From: a virus
Length of the DNA stretch: 60,144 nt
Strand: one strand, 5' to 3'
IMG/VR virus record: IMGVR_UViG_3300025632_000016
Coordinates: 1-60,144 of that record
The notes below the pieces were generated by a model. That model ran no database searches, was not told the DNA's origin, and saw only the letters and a list, made by a program, of their open reading frames with translations. Below, piece by piece: positions 3,071 to 42,546 of the stretch (positions are counted from its first letter, which is position 1; each line of letters opens with the position of its first letter). The translations under genes and the position numbers were made by a program.

Positions 3071-6000
3071 TGATACAAGAGGATAGACGTTTTTTTTATC
3101 TTGGAATGAACCAAGATTCCGACCCTAGATACCTAAAAGAAGGTGAGTACATAGAGGCTAAGAACTTTTATGTATCAAGTACTGATGGGGGGAATGACAA
3201 CGCCTTAGAAAATGTAAAGAGTACACTTGAAGTAAGTTATACATTACCGTCTGGTGGTAGATATAAATGCGTTAAGATACAAGATGACGAAGAAAACCAA
3301 AGAACTTATATATTCCTATGGAGTAGTGAGGGAGCTCATATAATTCTTTATTATAGCTATTTAGATGAAACCCTTAGATTATTAGTTAGAGATAACTTTT
3401 ATTCAATAGTAGGTACTTTGGGCGGGGCTACACCTACATACGCAACATCTTACACCGCTGGTGATGTAGTATTAAGAACGGGCGGTATATCTTCAGAGAA
3501 TAAATATTATATTTGTTTAGTTGGGTTTACATCCGCTAGTTATGCAGGAGAAAAAGACCCCGAAAAGAACTCATTAATTTGGAAGGAGATAGGCAACTAT
3601 TTAAACTTTCAAGAGAATAATTACATAGATTCAGCTATAATAATAAGAGATGGTCAAACGTTATTGTTTTGGACTGACAATCATAACGAGCCTAAATATA
3701 TTAACGTAGATAAATTAATTGGGTCTGAATACCCTACTGCATTACAAGCAGAGCATTTTGATTTATGCCCGTTACAGCCGCTACATCAAACGTTACTAAG
3801 CGATATTCCTACAACGGGAGGTGCTAATAACTCACTTATCGGTAAGTATTTTCAGTTTAGATATAGATGGGTGTTTGACGATGATATGTATGGTGCTTGG
3901 TCACCTATATCAGAAATGAATACATACAATACAAATTTATTTGCTAACCCTACTACTGCTTACAGCGCATTAAAACTTAGGGTGTATAGAAACTCTTCTA
4001 TACCTAATAGATTAAAGAGAATAGAAGTGGCATATAGAGATTGTAGAGATGGCAACTCTGGAGATTGGTATAAGTTTGCTGATATAGATGGTTCTGATAT
4101 TAGCGCATCAAATAAATATAGGTTTACTAAGTTCGATACAAGTACATTTGCTCTGAATGGCAATTGGGGATTAACGGGTGGTGGGGTTCAATACGAATCA
4201 TTCTACGAGGTAATCTTTGATAATAACTGCGCTAAAGTGCCGATAGACCAAAATGAGGCTAATCAATTGTATTCTTTCTGCCCTAAAAAAGCAGGAACAA
4301 TAGCCGTTACGGAAGATAATAGATTGGTATTTGGCGACATAGAGGAAAATTTAGATATTAGTGGCGTAGAGTTAGATATGGCTGCATCTTATGTATATAG
4401 CGCACCTAGAGTAACATCCCCTAGTATAAGTTATGAAAGGACTTTAAAGACGGGCGCAAAATACAAATGGGGTATAAGGTATTCAGATGGTAAGGGAAGG
4501 CTGTCTACGGTATTAACTAATTTTGACTTAGAAAAAGAAACAGATTGGTATGATTCAATAGCAGTGACCCCTAGTGTAGCCGTTAGTCTAAATATGAGAA
4601 TAGGTCACGCACCGCCATCTTGGGCTAAAACTTGGCAACTATGTTACTTACCAATAGGTATTGATTATGAGGGAAGTACACCTTTAGCCTATCAATTTAT
4701 GGCGGGGGCTGACACTCCAGTAGCGGCTAACGGTCAATCATTAATTAGCCTTCAAATACCAAGAACATTTAATAATGATAACGATGATAGTCAATTTCCC
4801 CTTAGTTTTAGTGATGAATATTACGTCAGGGGGGTATATGATGCATCGGCATCTTCCTATTGGCCTCAATACGATGAATCTAAAGTAATAGAAACTATTG
4901 ATTCAGGAGAAATAGCTTCGGCAATGATACTAGATGGAGGCAGCGGGTATAGCCTGTCACCTACTGTTACTGTAGTTGGTGGTGGTGGTGAAAACTGCAC
5001 TGTAACTGTTAGTGTTGATGCAACTGGTGCAATAAGTACCCCCATATCTTTAACCGCTGGCTCTGGCTTTACATCTTTTCCTACAATAAGAATTTCTGAT
5101 ACTTCTGGCTCTGGAGCTAATATCGTAGTAGATAAAATAAAATTCAAGAAGTACATAAAGATAGATAGCAGCGGTTGGACGACAAAACCACTTGGTGATG
5201 ATATTTTAGAAGTTTACAAAAAAAGCACAGATGAAAATAATGCCTTATGGAGAGAGTTTGGCTATCCTTGTAAGGTAGGATATGATGCTAATGGAGATTT
5301 AGCCCACTTAGGATTAGATTCTTTAATAAATACTGTTTCGGGTTTTGGCGACCCCGATGCGCCAAGTCAAAACCAAGTAATATCAAGCCTTACGGATTTA
5401 GTATATAATCCTAAAAACGTGGGCGATATGTATTTAAGCTACACATTCTTAGACTATGACGCTGATAACTTTCCTCCTAGTAAAACAATACCAACAACGG
5501 GTAGAACAGCGGTAGGCGGTGCATTCTTCCTAGAAGTGCCATTTGCGGATATAAGAACAGCATCTAGGTCTACTAGCTTAAAAAGGCCATTAGTAGCACT
5601 AGAAGACAATAGGCTACCTGCGCTTAACACAACATTAAGGTGGAGTGACCCGTTAGTACAAAACACTAACATAAACGGACTAGGATTCTTTTACGATATA
5701 AACTTTAGGGAACTAAAGAACGAATACGGAACTATAAGAAAGATATTTGCTGAAAACGAATATCTAAAAGTATTATTCGACAGAAAGATGGGGCTTTTAC
5801 CAATGGGTAGAACGGAAATAAACTCATTAGACGGTAATAATTTCGTAGGTAAAACTACTGATGTATTCGGAACTCCTAGATATTCTGTATCAGATTATGG
5901 TATATCAGACAATCCAGAGAGCCTTTCCTATTTTGGCGGAGCATCAATGTTTGTAGATAGAAACAAAAACACAGTACTAATATCAAGTGGCATAGAAGTG

Positions 6001-38847: not shown

Positions 38848-38907
38848 AGTAGCGCTGCGGGAATCGAACCCGCTTGAACCGTTTGATTCATTAACCATTG
38901 GCGCTCC
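38848..38907 (-). tRNA. tRNA-like remnant: T-arm and acceptor stem
   Basis: The minus strand has a perfect T-arm GCGGG-TTCGATT-CCCGC (38857-38873) and flanking acceptor-like pairing AGCGC/GCGCT (38901-38905 with 38851-38855). Between them lie only about 26 bases, too few for normal D and anticodon arms; a 5-bp stem TGAAT/GTTCA with a 6-base loop is possible. It is about 60 bases long, so either a degenerate tRNA gene, a D-armless tRNA-like RNA, or a captured tRNA 3' half such as an attachment site. Confidence 0.4.
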
Positions 38908-41913: not shown

Positions 41914-42546
41914 CTATTTACAAAGCATTAATCTATCAAACCCAATGGCAAACCCAATTCCTCTATCATAAGCACCACCTCCGCATATCTGTTCTTGCGC
42001 TCCTAGTTGTTTACAGCGTAATTCAAAGCCTTTATCTGTATAATAACCCAATCCCCTTGTTACGGAATAATCTATCGTTATATCCTTTGTTTGAAGTTCA
42101 CAAAGTTCTTTAGATATGTCTATTAATTCTTCTTTGATTAAATCAGTAGATGGGTTTATTACTTCGCAACCAAACTGCCAAAATTCTCTGTATCTGCCCC
42201 TTTGCGGTTTTTCGTATCTCCAGCATTTCTCAAAATACCAAACTCTTATTTCTTTTTTAGCTTGCCAAAAATGATTAGCAATTAATTGAACGGTTGCCGT
42301 TGCTTCTGGTCGTAAGCATACATTCCTTCCTTTTTTATCTGGAAATACCCACATTTGATTAAGAACCTCAGAACCCGCTTTATCAACGTATATCTCTGAC
42401 GGCTCTACGCTAGGTAGCTGTATTCCCTGAAAACCGTAAGATTCAACGGTAGCTATCATTTTATTTAATAGCGTGTATCTATCTCTTACTTCGTCACCAA
42501 ATAATATTCTAGTGCCTCTTGACTGTTTCTCTATTTTATATTCCAT
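41914..42546 (-). CDS. Minimal histidyl-tRNA synthetase-like catalytic core
   Basis: 210 residues, half the usual HisRS length. In order: LRPEATATVQLI (79-90), the motif 2 block WRYEKPQRGRYREF (109-122), GCEVI (126-130), the histidine motif RGLGYYTDKGFE (164-175), CGGGAYD (188-194) and motif 3 GFAIGFDRLML (198-208). Judged against E. coli HisRS, the contacts E83, T85, R113, E131, R259, Y264 and R311 all have equivalents (E81, T83, R110, E128, R164, Y169, R205); RGLDYY has become RGLGYY. The insertion domain and the anticodon-binding domain are missing. It probably still activates histidine, but the acceptor may not be ordinary tRNA; a HisZ-like or protein-modifying role is possible. Confidence 0.85.
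   Translation of the reverse strand: MEYKIEKQSRGTRILFGDEVRDRYTLLNKMIATVESYGFQGIQLPSVEPSEIYVDKAGSEVLNQMWVFPDKKGRNVCLRPEATATVQLIANHFWQAKKEIRVWYFEKCWRYEKPQRGRYREFWQFGCEVINPSTDLIKEELIDISKELCELQTKDITIDYSVTRGLGYYTDKGFELRCKQLGAQEQICGGGAYDRGIGFAIGFDRLMLCK

Follow-up and report, generated by a model that had tools for sequence, protein, structure and literature searches.

The stretch of DNA analysed here, a viral record of 60,144 nt from IMG/VR (IMGVR_UViG_3300025632_000016; hereafter the window), carries on its minus strand an ATG-initiated ORF whose 210-aa product corresponds to the catalytic core of a histidyl-tRNA synthetase (HisRS), at half the size of that enzyme. The question raised by this locus is what a phage does with such a reduced synthetase, and onto what acceptor it would load histidine. 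In the profile search the ORF matched the hisS model TIGR00442 with an E-value of 1.5e-52 and a score of 179 bits, and the Pfam family tRNA-synt_His at 5e-27; its PDB matches were HisRS chains of E. coli and archaea. These matches confirmed the half-size HisRS core that an earlier reading, made from the letters of the DNA (the sequence-only reading), had placed here. The score of 179 bits lies below 286.75, the curated cut-off of TIGR00442, which is an NCBI model of the full-length enzyme, and this is expected because the protein has half the length.

The window protein was aligned with the HisRS of E. coli MG1655 (Table 1). Class II motifs 1 to 3 and the histidine motif RGLxYY were all found, and each of the E. 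coli active-site residues quoted in the sequence-only reading had its equivalent. The ATP and histidine contacts E83, T85, R113, Q127, E131, R259, Y263, Y264 and R311 are kept in the window protein and in the other mini-HisRSs, as we call these short forms, apart from two rows of the alignment, L021 (R259P) and L032, the contig of which ends early. Absent from the window protein are E. coli residues 156-247 (the insertion domain) and 290-300 (a loop) and the whole part beyond 316 (the anticodon domain). It has neither the insertion domain nor the C-terminal HGTP anticodon domain of HisRS, just as had been read from the sequence. We filed it in a HisRS catalytic-core subfamily and not as a canonical HisS. 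In the exceptional gene L021:5998-6651, KPRYAYY replaces RGLxYY and the equivalent of the histidine-binding R259 is lacking.

Table 1. Positions in the window of the mini-HisRS gene and of its recognisable parts
Feature	Position	Strand	Evidence
mini-HisRS gene, catalytic core without insertion or anticodon domain	41914..42546	-	profile matches, alignment, model, dN/dS
residues 10-60, RGTRIL start and motif 1 region (helix 17-34); the +1 frameshift of most relatives falls here	42367..42519	-	
residues 81-83; E81, T83 = E. coli E83, T85, histidine contacts	42298..42306	-	alignment
residues 97-130, motif 2 and loop; R110, Q115, R118, R120, Q124, E128 = E. coli R113, Q118, R121, R123, Q127, E131	42157..42258	-	alignment
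junction of residues 152/153, place of the missing E. coli insertion domain (156-247)	42088..42093	-	alignment
residues 164-169, RGLGYY; R164, Y168, Y169 = E. coli R259, Y263, Y264	42040..42057	-	alignment
residues 189-193, GGGAY; Y193 = E. coli Y288	41968..41982	-	alignment
residues 197-207, motif 3; R205 = E. coli R311	41926..41958	-	alignment

A structure prediction compared with HisRS had been proposed in the sequence-only reading. The AlphaFold2 model, which was built on 30 family members, had a pLDDT of 88.9 and retains the HisRS catalytic fold: Foldseek ranked the histidyl-adenylate complex of E. coli HisRS first (query TM 0.90), and the comparison with HisRS by VIA-align gave a Z of 25.8 and an rmsd of 1.5 Å with 205 residues aligned. 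Catalysis without accessory domains is expected of engineered catalytic fragments of E. coli HisRS and of HisRS urzymes, and likewise of the mini-HisRS, which differs from those constructs in being natural, conserved and phage-encoded, in keeping motif 3 and in having no insertion domain.

A gene of half size might also be junk or the decaying remnant of a full HisRS gene, an outcome that the sequence-only reading had foreseen should homologues point that way. The homologues contradicted it. The same short form, which was to be searched for in related phages, was present in five other contigs at 79-97% identity to the window protein. Short forms about 45-50% identical were carried by the isolate Sinorhizobium phage Phosso (469 kb) and by two uncultured phages of huge size (635 and 642 kb), and dozens of additional viral contigs, many of them 250-610 kb long, had short forms too. 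In trees that included archaeal and E. coli HisRSs as full-length representatives, the mini-HisRSs formed a single clade apart from the full-length enzymes (SH-aLRT 99 and 100), and the nearest cellular sequences in the genome scan, among the matches listed, were archaeal HisRSs. The dN/dS of the window gene against three of the five near relatives was 0.05-0.09, which indicates that it is under purifying selection. With such selection and a monophyletic short family spread over dozens of phages, decay has next to no chance of being the explanation; the comparisons show a long-lived, independently conserved short form that is widespread in phages. Set beside HisRS, a class II synthetase whose catalytic core, motifs, histidine and ATP contacts and fold it shares, the mini-HisRS is distinguished by its two missing domains, its half length and its separate phage clade. 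That histidine adenylation persists, as had been suggested, is well supported by the residues kept intact throughout the family, the predicted fold and the purifying selection. Two members of the family are incomplete in other ways: L051:5974-6600 has an internal deletion and a broken frame and is likely a pseudogene or an assembly gap, and in L097:3700-4471, from a Telmatospirillum MAG contig, no RGTR block could be recognised in any of the frames of the N-terminal part.

Another protein derived from HisRS and devoid of the anticodon domain is HisZ, and the window protein might be a HisZ-like regulatory subunit of HisG. HisZ indeed appeared in the fold list with Z of 22-23, and weaker HMM matches to hisZ were obtained. 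However, hisS scored 179 bits against 99 bits for hisZ, the catalytic residues are all kept, the insertion domain is wholly missing, and HisG was found in 0 of 14 records (the window, three near relatives and ten large phages, some of them partial), the control of this search finding HisG in 13 of 14 genomes. Since these records show no HisG partner and the HisRS catalytic residues have not been lost, we rejected this identity as very improbable.

As to the acceptor, the sequence-only reading had favoured an unusual one (a protein, a small RNA or a tRNA-like structure) or else tampering with host HisRS or histidine pools. In agreement with this, ARAGORN found no tRNA gene in the window, none was found in the (partial) records of the five nearest relatives, and catalytic-core paralogues of other synthetases, such as GluQ-RS and PoxA, have roles of this kind (PMC9437257). 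Against it, the motif 2 loop, which in HisRS reads the tRNA end at base 73 (PMC9976931), has kept the residues that contact this end, and in many relatives tRNA-His genes adjoin the gene. Within 600 bp of the mini-HisRS gene 14 of 78 tRNAs were tRNA-His, compared with 16 of 317 at greater distances (Fisher p = 4.6e-4); tRNA-His occurred in 22 of the 33 loci that have any tRNA, and it lies 6-46 bp from the gene in L016, L031, L036, L038, L046, L047 and L200. Nearly all of the gene-adjacent tRNA-His genes encode G-1 and C73, which are the chief identity elements for histidine. Acceptor-stem microhelices as short as 8 bp are charged by HisRS via G-1:C73, and one archaeal HisRS disregards the anticodon (PMC9976931); HisRS is thus a plausible survivor without its anticodon domain, the loss of which requires no new acceptor. 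Moreover, a His codon occupies the frameshift site in 23 relatives (see below), which makes most sense if the product alters the supply of His-tRNAHis. Because of these neighbouring genes and this frameshift layout, ordinary tRNAHis is the expected acceptor, and it is likely that the mini-HisRS charges it and not an exotic substrate. A non-tRNA acceptor or interference with the host's HisRS or histidine pools appears quite improbable. Of the earlier interpretation, therefore, the adenylation part stood, and neither the unusual acceptor nor the tampering with host HisRS found support.

Two candidate partners of the protein were discarded. The degenerate tRNA-like sequence that had been reported at 38848-38907 did not hold up: it comes down to a 17-nt T-arm-like match at 38857-38873 (13 bits, E = 0.34, under the Rfam threshold) that is absent from the relatives and is possibly a remnant of a tRNA 3' end, not a tRNA. 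A separately encoded anticodon domain was also discarded, because HGTP domains in the mini-HisRS phages are confined to ThrRS-like genes.

The phage tRNAHis with G-1:C73 is unlike the G-1-less tRNAHis of alpha-proteobacteria, and the E. coli HisRS/tRNAHis pair is orthogonal in Caulobacter, an alpha-proteobacterial host (PMC3875453). The mini-HisRS would be a natural, phage-borne counterpart of that pair, but not all hosts lack G-1: in the Thalassospira genome that holds L096, the host tRNAHis has G-1:C73, so that orthogonality is ruled out as the general reason for a mini-HisRS. Several further tRNA genes were observed in these phages. At L031:6692-6764, L047:4979-5054 and L056:4252-4327 lies an additional tRNA-His of the alpha-proteobacterial type (G1:U72, no G-1), in each case accompanying a G-1:C73 tRNA-His in the same phage. 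A second tRNA-His-like sequence with anticodon GTG, missed by ARAGORN and seen by eye before tRNA-Phe, lies at L007:272-343, and the same arrangement recurs at L006:3103-3257. Two CUA-anticodon (amber-reading) tRNAs, called tRNA-Pyl, are present on the minus strand of a 578-kb phage (L047:10367-10523).

In the genome of Phosso (PV764938.1; L008:4044-4686), HisRS is annotated from a late start at 4096 as a protein of 196 aa, and the conserved N-terminus (MLRGTRVISGNEARAYTNAIDTLRG...) lies just upstream of this start in another frame. A zero-frame N-terminal ORF with the remainder in the +1 frame was found in 23 distinct loci (L008, L016, L030, L031, L033-L036, L038, L047, L048, L056, L061, L063, L088, L092, L096, L200, L241, L249, L253, L254 and L264). 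Just before the split, the zero frame carries [C/G]UU CA[U/C] in 23 of 23. The slip codon is CUU in 14 loci and GUU in nine, and the A-site codon is always histidine (CAU 18, CAC 5); UGA follows the His codon directly in 14 loci and a sense codon in nine, where the zero-frame stop is reached no more than 12 codons from the slip codon. If the ribosome slips by +1 from NUU to UUC, the product regains the length of the in-frame homologues, the stretch between RGTR and the LPS block measuring about 37 aa. Among the 18 loci first analysed, UUCA is invariant at the site and codon-position variability switches frame there. The two frames overlap by as little as 2-5 codons in L030, L033-L035 and L038, which have no +1-frame start codon before +94 nt. 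Upstream stands AGG GGG, CGG GGG, CGG AGG or AGG AGG in the RF2 register, with a 3-nt spacer; over the 18 loci, the median anti-SD pairing at this register lay in the top 1% of gene 10-mers, so that a G-rich, SD-like element of the RF2 type precedes the slip codon by 3 nt in the median case. This element is weak or absent in L047, L048, L088 and L092 and, by eye, in L241 and L254. The records are in part fragments. No frameshift was seen in the window gene and its five nearest relatives, in which the genes are in frame; the window copy is without the switch.

This layout resembles that of prfB, the RF2 gene, which has an AGGGGG- or CGGGGG-type element, a 3-nt spacer, CUU and a zero-frame ORF of about 25 codons and is controlled by its own product (PMC13245932), as we propose for the split mini-HisRS genes. 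Pseudomonas prfB reads CGG GGG UAU CUU UGA (PMC13245932), and L061 reads CGG GGG UAU CUU CAU, with the His codon replacing UGA. The RF2 rule of CUU followed by UGA in the A site is not obeyed here: CAY occupies the A site in 23 of 23 loci, GUU serves beside CUU, and the gene encodes a synthetase. Given a His codon instead of UGA, the sensed product would be His-tRNAHis, not RF2. The +1 frameshift of Ty1 and ABP140 (CUU_AGG_C) likewise uses a CUU slip at a sense codon slowed by a scarce aminoacyl-tRNA (PMC5009743); there the ribosome pauses at a rare Arg codon that has nothing to do with the product's function, whereas in the mini-HisRS genes the pause would fall on the codon of the enzyme's own amino acid. 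In the open-access literature we found no paper linking frameshifting with HisRS or with any phage synthetase gene.

The split frames might instead represent a stop-driven, RF2-like frameshift, chance mutations or sequencing errors, the His codon being incidental. Such an explanation can draw on the RF2-like layout and on the 14 of 23 loci with UGA directly after the His codon, where slow termination could also contribute. It does not account for the nine loci in which CAY is followed by a sense codon and the stop comes later, on the basis of which a purely stop-dependent frameshift was rejected. In addition, a slip from CAU to AUU pairs badly while CUU or GUU to UUC pairs well, and the same split recurs at four positions, its carriers being an isolate phage, the assembly of a Thalassospira isolate and more than 20 contigs. 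Twenty other synthetase genes from these phages are unbroken, each in a single frame throughout; the device is thus specific to HisRS here and not a general phage trick for synthetases. We regard an incidental His codon as rather unlikely. An independent start of the +1-frame ORF was also dismissed, because about half of the 18 loci have no start codon upstream of or at the site, and a later start in this frame would drop motif 1; so was transcript slippage, because the sites have no long homopolymer.

The site, numbered from RGTR, is at residue 16 in L016, 17 in L264, about 25 in 20 loci and about 70 in L092 (codon 71 of its ORF), the positions in L016, L092 and L264 each coming from a single contig and L264 being a very long branch. 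In AU tests on the 18-locus set, with groups chosen after the tree was seen, a single clade of all frameshifted genes was rejected (p = 2.7e-4), as was the main group plus L016 (p = 0.014) and, narrowly, the main group plus L092 (p = 0.041); L092 groups with the in-frame L029 and L093 (SH-aLRT 97). From the four positions, the AU rejections and the grouping of L092, it appears that the Leu/Val-His slip site had three or more origins, one in the main group and at least two in separate cases. The His codon is partly inherited in the main group, so the independent evidence for it consists of the four positions, not of 23 loci. Three in-frame genes, L027, L029 and L093, lie inside the frameshift-rich clade, which argues that frameshift control is dispensable in some lineages; the position of L027 suggests a loss of the frameshift, and such loss is common for prfB (PMC13245932).

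Taking the evidence as a whole, we consider it quite probable that this family is a minimal HisRS charging tRNAHis, its synthesis gated in 23 relatives by a +1 frameshift at a His codon. As far as can be read from the sequences, the catalytic core is intact, the family is conserved, the UUCAY split is constant at four site positions, and tRNA-His genes adjoin the gene. The window protein would be a free-standing enzyme that activates histidine and charges tRNAHis through its acceptor end (G-1:C73), by means of the motif 2 loop and with the anticodon unread. Its substrate would be the host's tRNAHis in the window phage, and the gene-adjacent phage tRNAHis in many larger relatives. In the split genes, the ribosome would translate about 25 codons and then meet CUU or GUU followed by the His codon. 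When His-tRNAHis is scarce, it would stall at CAY; the P-site tRNA would re-pair from NUU to UUC, often aided by the G-rich anti-SD-binding element, and translation continuing in the +1 frame would yield the full-length mini-HisRS. When His-tRNAHis is plentiful, CAY would be read and a short peptide would end at the zero-frame stop. Synthesis of the enzyme would in this manner be tied to a shortage of what it produces. At the RF2 site no known +1 slip codon is more efficient than CUU, and +1 slips are favoured when the A-site codon is slow (PMC5009743). We infer that frameshifting takes place at the UUCAY sites and that it depends on the charging of tRNAHis. Since the layout argues that the product raises His-tRNAHis, tRNAHis would be the acceptor family-wide, the in-frame window member included, and the latter would probably do the same job unregulated. 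It seems to us fairly likely that a synthetase gene read only by way of a slip at a codon for the enzyme's amino acid originated in phages on at least three and perhaps four occasions, with the ribosome gauging charged tRNAHis and thereby gating HisRS synthesis.

If true, the half-size HisRS, the G-1:C73 tRNAHis and the switch would make up a self-contained, supply-on-demand module for histidine charging, usable where the host HisRS or tRNAHis is disabled or incompatible. The mini-HisRS would give a natural answer to the question of the minimal size of a working HisRS, long studied only by engineered fragments. What the relatives suggest is RF2 autoregulation transferred to a sense codon, with a 'hungry codon' as the signal of charged tRNA; a recoding review of 2016 described hungry-codon frameshifting and left open its use for starvation-specific products (PMC5009743). 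Such a switch would be a small, testable sensor of His-tRNA charging, and the enzyme with its tRNA might serve genetic-code work as a natural orthogonal HisRS/tRNAHis pair. The findings also suggest that phages protect themselves in particular against losing His-tRNA, which could hint at host defences attacking histidine charging.

Other synthetase-like genes were seen in the course of the comparison. L213, L215, L216 and L217 contain in-frame ORFs of about 420-440 aa with a class II core and an HGTP anticodon domain, apparently ThrRSs that lack the N-terminal domains. L223-L226, from the huge phages with mini-HisRS genes, are further short class II synthetase-like genes of 250-329 aa ('NVNGLMFW..LALRPETTPGSY'); a 106-aa piece had no NCBIfam match.
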